This document shows, in pieces, positions 57,949-63,531 of a stretch of 64,000 nucleotides of DNA; position 1 is the stretch's first letter, and each line of letters opens with the position of its first letter. The notes beneath the pieces are model-generated. The model was not told the DNA's origin. It made no database searches and was given only the letters and a program-made list of their open reading frames with translations. This DNA is from Trichosporon coremiiforme (taxonomy: Eukaryota > Basidiomycota > Tremellomycetes > Trichosporonales > Trichosporonaceae), in contig BCJJ01000004.1 in NCBI GenBank assembly GCA_039545355.1, positions 744,001 to 808,000 of the forward strand, given 5' to 3'. Made by a program: the position numbers and the translations under genes.

Positions 57949-58263
57949 GGTGATCGTGAGGGTGTAGGAATGCGAACTCGATCGTGGCTGATCCAAAGGT
58001 TGCGGACACTCATGCAGCGGCGCACCTCCACCTCTCGAAAACATGACGCTCAGGGTGTGAAACACGCGGCGGGTGCCACACACCTGAGCACGCGACGTCG
58101 ACCAGGGAGTCCACCCGATAACTCCGTAACGCCGTACGCTGAGCGACGGGCGGGCGGGTGCGCGGGTCTGGCCCGGACGCTCGCTGTGTCCGACGCTGCC
58201 GGCGATGTCATGAGTGACGATCATTAGTCTTAGCCGACTTTCGCACCACCACTCTCCTTAAAA
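57949..58263. other. Divergent promoter region
   Basis: 315 bp between URM1 and MIC60 starts, presumably a shared promoter region. No specific motif supported. Confidence 0.5.
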
Positions 58264-60549
58264 ATGTACGGCCAGCTCAGGCATGTTCCTGCCCGGGCTC
58301 CGAGGGCCCTCGTTCAGAGGCGCGTAAGTATCTCCTCCCGACACACGCGTCGATCACATGCACAAGCTCACACTACATTACAGGCTCTGAACGTCTCGGC
58401 TCCCGCCCGCCAGAACATTCCTCCTACCGCGCAGGCTGCTTCGGCCACGATCCCTCCCAACCAGAAGAAGGGAAGCGTTCTCGGCAAGCTCGTCCGCTAC
58501 GTCGTTATCGGTGGTCTCATTTTCTACCCCGTTTCCGCCTATGTCTCGACCAAGTCGGAGCCCTACCGCGACTTCTTCGTCAAGCTTCCCGGAGGTGAGG
58601 CGATTGCCGACTACGCCGACGAGAACGACTGGAACGAGTTCGGCCCCGGTACCATCACGAAGCAGATTGCCAAGTGGACCGGCGGTAACAAGGACGAGGA
58701 CCTGCAGCGCAAGATTGAGGCTGCCACCAGGAACGCCGAGGCCAAGGCCAAGTCCGCCGGCGATGAGATCTCCCGTGAGGCTCACGTCGCCAAGGACGCT
58801 CTCCAGGACAAGATCACCGGTCTGCAGCGCGTTCTCAGCAACGCCGCTACCGAGGCTCGCGACAAGGCCCAGGAGCTTGCCCGCCAGGCTCAGGAGAAGG
58901 CTAGCGAGCTCTCTGCTTCGATGAAGGAGAAGGCTGAGGAGGTCAAGGGCAAGGCCGAGGAGGCCAAGGACCGTGCCGAGTCCGCCGCTGATGCCGCCAA
59001 GCAGCGCGCTGAGGCCTCTGCCGAGTCCTCGAAGCGCTCCGCCGACTCGATCGCCCAACAGGTGCAGGCTGCCGCTAAGGACGCCGCCGAGAACGCTAAG
59101 CTCGCTGGCCAGTCGATCAAGCAGGACGCCAAGGACCTCAAGGACGCGATCACGGAGAAGGCTGAGGAGGCTGCCGACGCCGTCAAGGAGAAGCACGACA
59201 CTGGCGCCACTCTCACCAACCCCGCGTACTACCCCGACACTGCCCGCCCCCGCGCCGTCACGACCGAGGGTGTCAAGCCCCAGAAGCCCGACCACACCAA
59301 CGAGACGCTCTGGGATGAGAAGCTCCCTCTCGGCTACGAGGCCCCTCCCGGATTCTACGTCCCTCCTCCCAAGAAGGCCAAGAAGCCCAAGGCTGGCGAG
59401 AAGCTCCCTCTTCTCGTCCCCAAGGTCAAGGCTATCGCCGGTGAGGAGCCTGTTATCGCCCAGCTCGCTGCTACCATCGACTCCCTGACCAACTCGCTCT
59501 CGTCTGGCAAGGGTGTCCCCTCCGCGGACTCTTCGCGTATCCTCGAGAAGGCTCAGGGCGACCTTACCGCCCTGAACTCGCGCATCTCCGAGGTCAAGAA
59601 GACGGAGCAGGAGCGTCTCGAGAAGACTGTGGCTGAGCAGGCGTCCAAGTTCGAGAACAAGCTCCAGGAAGTTGAGCAGAAGTGGAAGAGCGACGAGGAC
59701 AACCTCAAGAAGAACTGGGAGGACGAGCGCCAGAAGATGGTCGACAGCTGGCGCACCGTTCTCGACGGTGAGCTGGAGGAGCAGCGCAAGGTGATCGAGC
59801 AGCGCCTGAAGGACGAGGTCGTTTCGCAGGGTATCGAGCTCCAGCGCCGGTGGCTCCGTTCCATCAAGGCGCAGGTCGAGACTGAGCGTGGTGGCCGTCT
59901 CGCCAAGCTCGAGGCGCTCACGACCTCGCTCAAGCAGCTCGAGCGCATCACGCTTGACAACTCTGCCGTTCTCGACGACAACGTGCGCCTGCACAAGATC
60001 TGGTCCGCCCTCCGTGCCGTCCAGTCTAAGGCTGAGCGCGGCGACATTGCGTTCGATGACGAGCTCCGCGTCCTGCACGCTCTGACGGGCGACGCGCACG
60101 CCGTCGCGGACAACAAGATCGTCAACGCGACCCTCGCCTCGCTCGAGGCCTCGGGCATCGCCCAGACCGGCGTCAAGTCCTTCCCCTACCTCGCCTCTTG
60201 GTTCGCCAACTCTGTCGCGCCGCGAATCCACGAGGCCGCCCTCGTCCCGGCGCCCGAGAACGCCGGCGTCGGCGCCCACGTCGCCTCCAACCTCCTCTCC
60301 AAGGTCATGTTCCGCCCGCAGGCCGGTCTTGTCGAGGGCGAGTCGGTCGACGCCCACCTCGCCCGCGCCGAATGGGCCCTGGCCAACAAGGACCTCGACG
60401 CCGCCGCTCGCGAGGTCAACAACCTCCGCGGATGGCCGAGGAAACTCGCCGAGGACTGGCTTCGGGAGGCCCGCCGCCGGCTCGAGGTCCAGCAGGCCCT
60501 CGACGTCGTCGGAACCGAGGCCACCCTCTCCTCCCTCCTCATGGTTTAA
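58264..60549 (+). CDS. MIC60: MICOS subunit Mic60 (mitofilin)
   Basis: Mic60 is the inner-membrane core of the MICOS complex, which holds crista junctions and contacts the outer membrane. Exons 58264-58323 and 58384-60549 encode 741 aa. An Arg-rich presequence (MYGQLRHVPARAPRALVQRR) is followed by one membrane helix (KLVRYVVIGGLIFYPVSAYV). A long Ala/Lys/Glu coiled coil comes next, then a Pro-rich hinge (YEAPPGFYVPPPKKAKKP) and a second coiled coil (KWKSDEDNLKKNWEDERQKM). The C-terminal mitofilin domain ends HLARAEWALANKDLDAAARE, then VNNLRGWPRKLAEDWLREAR. The 60-nt intron is a multiple of three with no stop, so unspliced mRNA would add 20 residues to the presequence. Strong codon bias makes a 798-codon open frame on the other strand; it is a shadow. 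Identification is secure. Confidence 0.94.
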   Translation: MYGQLRHVPARAPRALVQRRVSISSRHTRRSHAQAHTTLQALNVSAPARQNIPPTAQAASATIPPNQKKGSVLGKLVRYVVIGGLIFYPVSAYVSTKSEPYRDFFVKLPGGEAIADYADENDWNEFGPGTITKQIAKWTGGNKDEDLQRKIEAATRNAEAKAKSAGDEISREAHVAKDALQDKITGLQRVLSNAATEARDKAQELARQAQEKASELSASMKEKAEEVKGKAEEAKDRAESAADAAKQRAEASAESSKRSADSIAQQVQAAAKDAAENAKLAGQSIKQDAKDLKDAITEKAEEAADAVKEKHDTGATLTNPAYYPDTARPRAVTTEGVKPQKPDHTNETLWDEKLPLGYEAPPGFYVPPPKKAKKPKAGEKLPLLVPKVKAIAGEEPVIAQLAATIDSLTNSLSSGKGVPSADSSRILEKAQGDLTALNSRISEVKKTEQERLEKTVAEQASKFENKLQEVEQKWKSDEDNLKKNWEDERQKMVDSWRTVLDGELEEQRKVIEQRLKDEVVSQGIELQRRWLRSIKAQVETERGGRLAKLEALTTSLKQLERITLDNSAVLDDNVRLHKIWSALRAVQSKAERGDIAFDDELRVLHALTGDAHAVADNKIVNATLASLEASGIAQTGVKSFPYLASWFANSVAPRIHEAALVPAPENAGVGAHVASNLLSKVMFRPQAGLVEGESVDAHLARAEWALANKDLDAAAREVNNLRGWPRKLAEDWLREARRRLEVQQALDVVGTEATLSSLLMV

Positions 60550-60831
60550 AGATAGGATAGTCATGCATAGATGAAAGATATACACATCACAGTGTGCGCG
60601 AGCAAGGCGAGCAAGCCAGTCAGACTGCGATCGTAGCGAGCAACGCGGGGCAGCGGACTGGACAACGCGAGCGCGGAGGGGAAGTTGAAGCCAGAATGGA
60701 CGTGATAGTGATGAAGCGGGACATTGAATCTGGGCACAGGTTAGGTTCATCTGAGTTCGCCACCTACAGTCCATAGTCTTGATGAGACGATCCGTGGATG
60801 GTTAGCAGGATCGTCGACCGCAACCTACGAT

Positions 60832-62582
60832 CTAAGCAGACTCAGGACGGTGCGCCTCGACGACCTGCTCGTGCTCGCGCAGCTCCGACTCATGCTTCTT
60901 GAGTCCCTGCTCGTCCTCGGCGAGCTTGGCCATGTCCTCAGTGGGGTCCTTCGCCTCGTCTTTGATGGGCTCAGTGCTACCCGCGACAGTGGTGGGAATG
61001 AGAGTGGGAACCCCCTGGGCGGCGGGCTTGACGGGAGGAGTAGCGGGAGTGGTGAGCTGCGCAGCAGGGTCGGAGGGAACGAGCTTGTCGATGTCCTGCC
61101 ACTGCTCTTCATTCTTGCCCTTCTCCTCTTGGGGCTCATTCTTGACCTCGGTCTCAGTCTGGACAGAGACATGGACATCCGTGTTGGTCATGACCTCGAT
61201 GGGGCGAACCTGCACGCCCTCCGCGTCCTTGGCCGCGGCCGCCGCCACACTCGCAGCAGCGGTGGCGGCGGTGGGGCTGGCGGGGGAAGCCTGGATGGGC
61301 TCGGCGGACTTGACCTCGTCGGAAGGAGAGGCGATCTTGGCGGGCGTAGTGGGCGCGCTAGGGGCGGGAGTGAGGGGCGCACCGACAGGCTCGACGGCCG
61401 AGATGGGAGTGGGCACTTCGGGGGGCTCGGAGCCAGTCGTCGCGTGAGTGGACGAGGCGTCGTCGCGAACATTGAGAGAGGGGAGGATGATCGACGCGGC
61501 AGTCGCGCCAGTCCCGGCGAGGGCGGAGTGGAGGCTCGGCGTCTCCTCGTCCTTCTCCGACTTGATCTCGGGCTCGGTGGCGGCCTTGGGTGTCTCGACG
61601 TCGGCGTCGACGGTGTCAGCGTCGGCATTGACTGCTGTCAGCTCAATGGTGGACATAGAGCAGGGAGGGAGGCTCACGCTTCTTCGCCTCGGCGTCGGCT
61701 GCATGTCAGCTTTGCTGTATATGGTGCCAAACTGTCAGGTGAAGACTTACGCTTCTCCATGGTAGTCCCGGCACCGAACGCGGCTGTCGTCAGCTCCAGG
61801 ACTCTTCATCTTAAGACCAACTCACGCCTGGTGACGGGAGTGGGGACAGGCTCAGCTGCAAGTCAGCTCCCTGTAACAGTTGCGGAGCTGGAGAAGGCTC
61901 ACTGCTCTTCAAGACAGGCTCAGCTGCCTGTTAGCTCTTGGCGGACATCGCCGAGCTCGTCGGTAAACTCACTCTCCTCAGAGACAGGGTCGGCTGGACG
62001 TAAGCTCCATGCCACACCTGCAGAGCTGGCCGACGGGGACTCACTCTTCTCGAGAACAGGCTCAGCTAGTCGTCAGCTGAATGCCCAGAGTGTAGAACTG
62101 GGAGAAGAGGAACTCACCCTGCTCAGAGACAAGCTCGTCTGGATGTCAGCTGTAAAGAGACAAGATAGCAGCTGGGCCAACCACTCACCCTTCTTCTCGG
62201 CAGAGACGGGCTCAGCTGCATGTCAGATATTCCCAAAGCGCTCACATCTTCAACCAAGACCTACCCTCCTTCTCAGCAGCGAGCTGGGCTGTTCGTCAGC
62301 TTGCATTGTGGCTTCTGCGGAGCTGTCTTGCGCTGACTCACTCTGCTTCTCGGCGACAGGCTCGGCTGGTTGTCAGCTAAAAGAACATTACCGAGAGAAC
62401 TGGAGACCATTCGACCACAGCGGAGGCAACTTACCCTTCTCCTTCTCGATGGTCTCGGCGGGTTCAGCCTTGACCTCAGCGGGCTTGTCAACCTTAGGCT
62501 TCGCGTCGCTTATACTGAGCTTGCGCACGGCGTCGGCGGCCTCCTTGACGCTGTCGGACGACTTCTTGGAGAACAGGCCCAT
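60832..62582 (-). CDS. Microexon-array gene: acidic repeat protein of unknown function
   Basis: Twelve exons, 1191 nt, 396 aa. Exon 1 (62435-62582) encodes MGLFSKKSSDSVKEAADAVR, then KLSISDAKPKVDKPAEVKAE and PAETIEKEK. Ten microexons follow: 62342-62365, 62265-62288, 62189-62215, 62118-62138, 62045-62065, 61973-61993, 61903-61923, 61826-61855, 61751-61783 and 61678-61698. They add AEPVAEKQ, TQLAAEKE, AEPVSAEKK, DELVSEQ, AEPVLEK, TDPVSEE, TEPVLKS, TEPVPTPVTR, PAFGAGTTMEK and PDAEAKK. The last exon (60832-61631) is Ala/Pro/Thr/Glu-rich and ends in a charged helix (LAEDEQGLKKHESELREHEQ). All eleven introns are phase 1, so any microexon can be skipped without changing frame. Each intron has GTGAGY/GTAAGT/GTAGGT, a CTGAC, CTAAC or CTTAC branch site, and a 3' AG. 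There is no signal peptide, membrane segment or recognised domain. Function unknown. Confidence 0.85.
61826..62434 (-). repeat. Tandem exon-intron repeat, unit about 70-77 bp
   Basis: Exon starts in forward coordinates are 61903, 61973, 62045, 62118, 62189, 62265 and 62342, spacings of 70, 72, 73, 71, 76 and 77 bp. Each unit holds an acceptor, a microexon that in most copies begins CTGAGCCTGTC or a close variant, a donor and an intron. At least four introns (introns 2, 5, 6 and 8) also share a degenerate CAGCTCYGCA about 12-20 nt after the donor. This points to duplication of the whole exon-plus-intron unit rather than separate origin of each exon. Confidence 0.8.
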
Positions 62583-63531
62583 CTTGATTATGTCTAGTGT
62601 TGCTTGTTGACAAGTGACAGAGGTGTGCGAGCTGAGGGTTGGCGGTGAGTGATGCGAAAGGAAAGGAGAGGGTGGGTGGTGGACAAGACGAGGAAGGCGG
62701 CAAGTGCTTATTAATGAGGGCATCAGACCAAAGGGTGCCGACGTGGACGTCTCGATGCGAGAGGCGCAGCGGAGGGATGCGCATGGTGCACAAGGCGCAA
62801 GGAGGGGCTGCGACGCCGTTGTTGTGTGACAGGCTGCGAAGTGCAAGAGTGCGAGAGGGGCAAGTGAGTGAGTCGACATTGCCCGATAGGCCGTAACAGC
62901 CATGGAGGGAGGAAGGACGACGGACCGTCGCACTCTGGCCTGCACATGGTACGAAGGATCGCCTTGTGCGTTAGCGCCCCACGTCACGTTGTCTCGAACG
63001 GTATCGTCTGCTGACTTTCAGCTTTGGACATCTTGCGCAGTGTTCGCTCAAGTTAAGGCTGGCTGCTCGTCGGGCAACCCGACCTCGTTGCTGGAAAGGT
63101 CTTCTGTGCCGCGTGTTGGAAGCTGCTCTATGCTCTACGACTTCATGAGCGTCACCAAGAGACAACCACGTTATCAAAGTGAGGCACGGTCTGTGCTCGG
63201 AACGGGCGTACTGAGGAATGGTCAATGCAGCGTCAGTGCGGCCGGAGCCGGCGCAGATCACACGTCCAGGAACGCCGCCACACTTGGGCCACACTGGTCA
63301 CGACTCCAGTCCCCGAGATCGCTGGATCGCTGGAGTGCGTTTCAGACGTGCACCATGTGTGCGTGGTGTTTCACATGCTGCATTGTTCTGCTATCTGTCT
63401 TCTCACGCGTTGCTATTGTTACAAAGTGTGTGTGGTGCGGTTCGCTCCGGCTGGGCTGCGGTTACGGGGAAAGGTTGTGGGATCTGAACAGGGTGGTGTG
63501 CGATGGTGGAGGAGATCAGGTGGAGCCACGT
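62583..63531. other. Intergenic region upstream of the microexon gene
   Basis: About 950 bp between the start of the microexon gene and the stop of the next gene; both are on the minus strand, so it contains the microexon-gene promoter and the 3' UTR of its neighbour. No coding signal, repeat or RNA gene recognised. Confidence 0.5.

Follow-up and report, generated by a model that had tools for sequence, protein, structure and literature searches.

Structure of the locus

The window, a 64-kb stretch of the Trichosporon coremiiforme genome with a GC content of ~60%, carries on its minus strand a predicted gene that begins with an ATG at 62582, has a stop codon ending at 60832 and would encode a product of 396 amino acids; in it, a first and a much longer last exon enclose ten microexons (Table 1). 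A diverged, syntenic copy of the locus (L004), to which we refer as the homeolog, lies on another contig of the same genome. The original prediction had described ten microexons separated by introns of 42-53 nt (69 nt for the first), in phase 1 on both sides, and these coordinates, lengths and phases are exact, with the array running from 62434 to 61632 on the minus strand. Its period of 70-77 bp for exon plus intron describes 7 of the 10 spacings, the exon starts lying 67-85 bp apart over the array as a whole. Of the ten encoded peptides, seven are variants of x-[ED]-[PL]-V. All 11 introns have a donor that reads GTRAGY or GTAGGT, an acceptor that is CAG or TAG, and a CTNAC branch site that ends 5 or 6 nt upstream of the exon. 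A Pfam search with the predicted protein returned no domain above the cut-off, the best match being PAP2 (E 0.087), which scored 13 bits where 27.2 were required.

Table 1. Exons of the microexon gene, its first intron and the overlapping antisense frame, in window positions.
Feature	Position	Strand	Length	Description
Exon 1	62435..62582	-	148 nt	ATG start (MGLFSKKSSDSVKEAADAVRKLS...); ends in phase 1
Intron 1	62366..62434	-	69 nt	
Microexon 2	62342..62365	-	24 nt	AEPVAEKQ
Microexon 3	62265..62288	-	24 nt	TQLAAEKE
Microexon 4	62189..62215	-	27 nt	AEPVSAEKK; matches homeolog exon 7 at 26/27 nt
Microexon 5	62118..62138	-	21 nt	DELVSEQ
Microexon 6	62045..62065	-	21 nt	AEPVLEK
Microexon 7	61973..61993	-	21 nt	TDPVSEE
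Microexon 8	61903..61923	-	21 nt	TEPVLKS; surplus relative to the homeolog by length-matched alignment
Microexon 9	61826..61855	-	30 nt	TEPVPTPVTR
Microexon 10	61751..61783	-	33 nt	PAFGAGTTMEK
Microexon 11	61678..61698	-	21 nt	PDAEAKK
Last exon	60832..61631	-	800 nt	includes the stop codon
Antisense frame	60745..62610	+	621 codons	open from stop to stop

A diverged second copy

The assembly comprises 42.0 Mb in 134 contigs, and T. coremiiforme JCM 2938 is listed with 42.35 Mb, 190 scaffolds and 59.6% GC in the part of PMC7026411 concerned (Table 1 there). Size, GC content and the two-copy state fit hybrid Trichosporonaceae, and the genome is probably a duplicated, hybrid one; passages of PMC6642101 indicate that RNA-seq exists for hybrid Trichosporon. 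In both copies of the locus the microexon gene lies tail to tail with a mitofilin (MIC60) gene (58261-60549 in the window; G000:C2:1244277-1246328 in the homeolog), and the gene on its other side is, by eye, likewise found near both.

In the homeolog (L004:1474-3536), exons of 181 and 830 nt enclose thirteen microexons of 21, 24, 24, 24, 24, 27, 21, 21, 21, 30, 33, 21 and 24 nt, all of them in phase 1 and all multiples of three. The homeolog thus keeps the split structure rather than carrying the same residues in one continuous exon, the contrary case named by the original prediction; and with 10 cassettes in the window against 13 in the homeolog, all symmetric, the proposal that copy number can change without breaking the frame is supported. 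Nine microexons match between the copies in order and with equal length, a number that 131 of 20,000 shuffles reached or exceeded. This length matching leaves window exon 8 and homeolog exons 2, 3, 4 and 14 as surplus cassettes, each of which may have been gained in one copy or lost from the other. When whole cassettes are aligned by score, the first six of the nine length-based pairs are recovered but not the rest; window exons 8-11 then fall opposite homeolog exons 11-14, a pairing that scores low (0.5 to 4.9).

The homeolog intron before exon 9 ends in CTG and so has no acceptor AG (L004:2250-2252), which marks either a dead cassette or an assembly error. If the CTG is real, exon 9 is probably skipped, in which case exons 8 and 10 would join in frame across an intron of 123 nt, a frame-neutral loss of one cassette. 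Elsewhere in the gene, a perfect 12-bp coding tandem repeat of 5.3 copies, encoding ETKT residues, occupies L004:3182-3245 in the homeolog's last exon; no counterpart of it was called in the window copy.

Coding and splicing signals

All 23 microexons of the two copies are divisible by three in length, as against 10 of the 25 introns (Fisher p = 3e-6, the duplicated exons being non-independent). Across ten aligned intron pairs, 53 of 60 donor bases, 46 of 50 branch-pentamer bases and 28 of 30 acceptor-trimer bases are alike, figures inflated by the procedure, in which these same motifs served to place boundaries and branch sites. Over nine aligned pairs, identity is 0.55 in intron cores (172 of 310 positions; 0.48 when shuffled) and 0.70 in exons (155 of 222 positions; 0.61 for 29 unmatched exon pairs of equal length). 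Read without splicing, the region contains stops in all three frames, and retention of a single intron truncates the predicted product in 10 of 11 cases in the window and 13 of 14 in the homeolog.

Of the flanking exons, exon 1 is 78% identical to its homeolog over query residues 1-45, and the last exon, judged by its substitutions (NG86 dN 0.20, dS 0.51), is under coding constraint. The 67 differences between matched microexons fall on codon positions 1, 2 and 3 as 30, 19 and 18, against 53, 39 and 92 in the flanking exons (p = 0.0015); in the absence of a third-position excess, the substitution pattern alone cannot show that the microexons are translated. Residues that are weakly constrained and change fast, matching that is partly wrong, or non-translation would each explain why such an excess is missing.

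Repeat structure of the array

The description of the array as a minisatellite went too far. With a score threshold of 30, Tandem Repeats Finder called no cassette-size repeat within 61632-62434, where its sole call was a 21-bp pair at 61599-61642 that touches the edge; in the homeolog it called one 72-bp unit (positions 2163-2301 of L004; 1.9 copies, 78% matches), which takes in acceptor, exon, donor and intron, and hence a whole cassette. An ungapped search of the window found seven copies of a 41-nt element with at least 63% identity to the reference copy, four of whose six spacings are 70-77 bp. Growth by tandem duplication, as originally proposed, is seen directly for one pair only, in the homeolog; it is the likely route by which the array grew.

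Exons within an array resemble one another (median z 2.6 in the window, 2.2 in the homeolog). Intron similarity between the copies reached z values of up to 8.7 before masking, and z was at least 4 in 17 of 300 pairs of array introns as against 9 of 1200 pairs of array and control introns. We had considered this similarity as the scars of duplication, an idea largely dropped because control introns, too, carry the motif CAGCT, set at a constant spacing from the branch site. With CAGCT masked, z was at least 3 in 4.3% of 300 array pairs versus 1.5% of 1500 (p = 0.05, the pairs being non-independent), so that the intron traces which the original prediction saw shared among cassettes are for the most part a genome-wide motif, and a marginal excess is left. 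Exon similarity correlates with similarity of the downstream intron (r = 0.23, p = 0.015) and of the upstream intron (r = 0.18, p = 0.04) when both arrays are taken together; the correlation is not significant in either array alone.

Chance expectation and other runs of short exons

We scanned for chains of CTNAC, YAG and GTRRG signals, motifs picked after reading the array, that would delimit exons of 15-45 nt divisible by three and introns of 38-75 nt. The longest chain in the 64-kb window has 10 members, at the array, compared with 0 on the rest of the minus strand and 1 on the plus strand; 60 first-order simulated 64-kb sequences gave chains of 0 (4 times) or 1 (56 times). The homeolog, where the missing acceptor breaks the chain, scores 6 by the same scan and 7 by a laxer one. 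As controls we took 20 loci of 10 kb, each chosen because it holds one of the listed matches to a microexon-like pattern, which matches 255 times in the genome; no genome-wide negative rests on that pattern. The laxer scan of these loci found chains divisible by three of at most 2 members, where the window gave 10 and the homeolog 7. Chains of any length grew to 3, 4, 5 and 3 members at four of these loci; of the 15 short exons in them, only 3 were divisible by three.

Three consensus donors spaced 60-90 bp apart occur 29 times in the genome, 7 times in the two arrays and 22 times elsewhere, as often as with a reversed-pattern control (22); this pattern is an insensitive one that caught 2 triples in the window array, and arrays with other donors may escape it. 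Two clusters among the matches elsewhere were inspected. One, L030 (G000:C12:1189500-1192000), is a dense run of short introns with a chain of 15 for any length and 6 for lengths divisible by three; in our laxest scan (exons of 9-80 nt, any AG) its divisible-by-three exons measure 18-78 nt, with one of 9. It is perhaps an untranslated or non-coding transcript. By eye, some of its introns lie only a few nucleotides apart, and several of these junctions read CAG-GC-GTGAG. The other, L031 (G000:C4:1311800-1313500), has a chain of 9 for any length and 2 for lengths divisible by three under the laxest scan; it appears as dense short introns and short exons, with branch sites that by eye are of the TAACTC type. 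Runs of short exons are therefore not unique in this genome, and in our limited genome searches a symmetric, same-phase and mutually related run turned up nowhere but in the two copies of the present gene.

A motif complementary to the branch-site flank

CAGCT occurs in 15 of 101 predicted control introns, against 2.85 expected by shuffling, and it starts 22-28 nt before the CT of the branch site in all 25 occurrences pooled from control introns, L030 and both arrays; both the motif and its position are firm. Most occurrences lie 24-25 nt before the branch site, and intron 8 (61856-61902) is an example from the array. The motif is complementary to AGCTG, the sequence that normally flanks the branch site. 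Matches to GTGAGT...X...N14-20...Y, counted as patterns rather than as proven introns and with homeologous ones counted twice, number 363 for CAGCT with AGCTGAC, 14 for CAGCT with AACTGAC, 21 for CAGTT with AACTGAC and 24 for CAGTT with AGCTGAC, whereas reversed-pattern controls give 0 or 1; the association of CAGCT or CAGTT with the corresponding branch flank has an odds ratio of 23 (p = 2e-14). Against a general rule of pairing stands a further combination, CAGCA with TGCTGAC, which has 0 matches genome-wide. Among the matches listed of the 363, CAGCT precedes varied loop sequences.

Stems of at least 5 Watson-Crick pairs ending at the branch site occur in 30% of control introns (17 of 56; 4% when shuffled) and in 48% of array introns (12 of 25; 5% when shuffled). 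The excess of array over control does not reach significance (p = 0.14); once G-U pairs are admitted, the counts are 24 of 56 and 18 of 25 (p = 0.018). Also at odds with a general pairing rule, 130 control introns sorted by flank have a 5-bp stem in 13 of 65 cases with AGCTG, 1 of 14 with AACTG and 0 of 11 with AGCTA. Swapping branch flanks among control introns brought no drop in stems at 22-28 nt (8.2 after the swap, 9 observed), although an earlier, looser swap test on 165 introns, arrays included, did bring one (24.2 after the swap, sd 3.4; 37 observed). We regard pairing of CAGCT with the branch flank as possible to likely.

How the array may work

The reading that we favour, and consider probable, is that of a single protein-coding gene with a row of symmetric phase-1 cassettes that are constitutively included and drift in copy number without consequence for the frame. 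The cassettes would each encode 7-11 residues of a charged, proline-rich and presumably disordered segment that may serve as a linker. Introns of 42-69 nt would be recognised singly, by intron definition; if short introns with strong, even signals are read in this way, exons of 21 nt should be no obstacle and their inclusion constitutive. Unequal crossing-over or slippage would add or remove cassettes, and an acceptor mutation could silence one; since each cassette is a multiple of three between phase-1 introns, its gain, loss or silencing would cause no frameshift. The array might thereby drift in copy number, its residues weakly constrained and its length modulo three and splice signals firmly so. 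With ten or more consecutive introns, such a gene would also be vulnerable to intron retention, with possible consequences for its expression.

The same symmetry would permit a different use, in which regulated skipping of cassettes generates many linker lengths in combination. Skipping is permitted by the symmetry and phase 1 that all 23 microexons share, and homeolog exon 9, which lacks an acceptor AG, could be skipped in frame; of the 33 microexons in schistosome MEGs 26-32, 26 are symmetrical, which passages of PMC4671649 read as pressure favouring alternative splicing, and shorter exons go with skipping across eukaryotes (PMC6142364, in part). The same portions of PMC6142364, however, tie skipping to long flanking introns and describe it as comparatively low in fungi, and the roughly one thousand isoforms that the original prediction envisaged find no support, constitutive inclusion being likelier. 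Near-uniform splice signals and short introns also favour constitutive splicing, and copying of cassettes together with frame-neutral loss explains the symmetry equally well, so that we regard regulated skipping as unlikely. Cryptococcus neoformans belongs to the same class as the Trichosporonales. Passages of PMC5006051 describe its alternative splicing as mostly intron retention and as no efficient means of diversifying the proteome.

Were the region instead one large intron, or a non-coding stretch of decaying repeats with its microexons unused, the lack of codon-position periodicity among microexon differences would follow naturally; yet splice signals are kept while intron cores stand near the shuffled level, no microexon length departs from a multiple of three, and microexon 4 is nearly identical between the copies beside diverged introns, all of which makes this reading very improbable. 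Just as improbable, in our estimate, is the invasion of a continuous coding repeat of ~7 residues by one mobile intron inserted at the same codon position each time, in the manner of introners. Array introns are indeed more alike mutually than to control introns at the z threshold of 4. The shared motif, however, precedes varied loops (among the matches listed of the 363) and its masking leaves little similarity, and the duplicated 72-bp unit contains the exon. A 123-nt cassette-pair probe, the one probe used and with very common words skipped, had 3 matches in the genome, in both arrays only; near-identical introns dispersed in unrelated genes, which define an introner family, were not found with it. 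We also considered a real gene on the plus strand, in the antisense frame of Table 1, which is stop-free across the whole locus. The homeolog's three antisense frames are closed by 10, 16 and 23 stops over the same span, against 0 in the window frame; the open frame was accordingly judged a product of chance and rejected as a gene, and we give that reading next to no credence.

A further step beyond constitutive inclusion, which we offer tentatively and think rather doubtful, is an array that expands by itself and is protected in its splicing: each cassette would come with a compact intron of its own, in many cases with a short stem that has the branch-site flank as its 3' arm; the stems would hold the donor and the branch site of the same intron together, and copy number, not alternative splicing, would tune the linker. 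If this is true, branch-site stems would make consecutive 21-nt exons safe from skipping among near-equivalent sites, and intron-internal stems of this kind would be a genome-wide device of intron definition in this fungus. The recurrent branch-site stem may show how intron definition handles exons of 21 nt.

Relation to known systems

The nearest counterparts lie outside the fungi. Schistosome MEGs, as passages of PMC4671649 describe them, have two long exons flanking a central coding part that consists mostly of microexons shorter than 36 bp, whose lengths are in most cases divisible by three. The window gene, with 148 nt, ten microexons of 21-33 nt and 800 nt, and its homeolog, with 181 nt, thirteen of 21-33 nt and 830 nt, resemble them in this layout and in their symmetrical microexons, here 10 of 10 and 13 of 13. 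They differ in that a flanking exon of MEGs holds a signal peptide, whereas the start found here, MGLFSKKSS, shows no obvious one by eye, and in that the introns here are ~50 nt long and most exons are variants of one motif; we claim no homology.

Tetrahymena LRR arrays with 90-bp exons have a symmetric exon plus an intron as their unit and vary in copy number, which is attributed to ectopic recombination in the passages of PMC6564038 concerned. Both systems have a uniform intron phase (there phase 2, here phase 1) and a variable copy number (here 10 and 13). At the DNA level, a repeat of exon plus intron was called here for one adjacent pair of homeolog cassettes (72 bp, 78% matches) and for none in the window, and the similarity of introns is mostly owed to the genome-wide motif. 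Those same passages concern a ciliate, very many genes, 90-bp LRR exons, a unit of ~347 bp (T. thermophila) and a link to a retrotransposon, in contrast to one homeologous gene pair, exons of 21-33 nt and a unit of ~72 bp here.

Among fungi, the Xlr2 gene of Trichoderma virens shares with the window gene a coding microexon, a single regulated, non-symmetric one of 20 nt that acts as a switch (PMC11121469, passages concerned), but it has neither array nor repetition. According to those passages of the paper, published in 2024, functional microexons had gone undescribed in filamentous fungi until this one, and microexons of fungi in general have received little study, with tests confined to S. 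pombe. Microexon arrays or arrays of exon units are thus known in animals and ciliates, and this part of the fungal microexon literature (PMC11121469) concerns a single one. Gene finders may miss exons of this kind, as happened with Xlr2 according to the same passages.

SP7-type effectors were considered as a precedent and set aside, the passages on them containing no microexon array. Searches of open-licence papers by title and start of abstract, partly through top listings, likewise returned no fungal microexon array. We therefore regard the gene as a new variant of an architecture known from schistosome MEGs and Tetrahymena exon arrays, for which no fungal precedent was met in this limited literature search; its two homeologs, which differ in having 10 or 13 cassettes, offer a natural experiment on the gain and loss of exon-intron units. 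In titin PEVK and tropoelastin, many short symmetric exons encode a repetitive, flexible region whose length is set by exon number. These are animal genes with larger exons, long introns and regulated skipping, and the analogy is one of working only.
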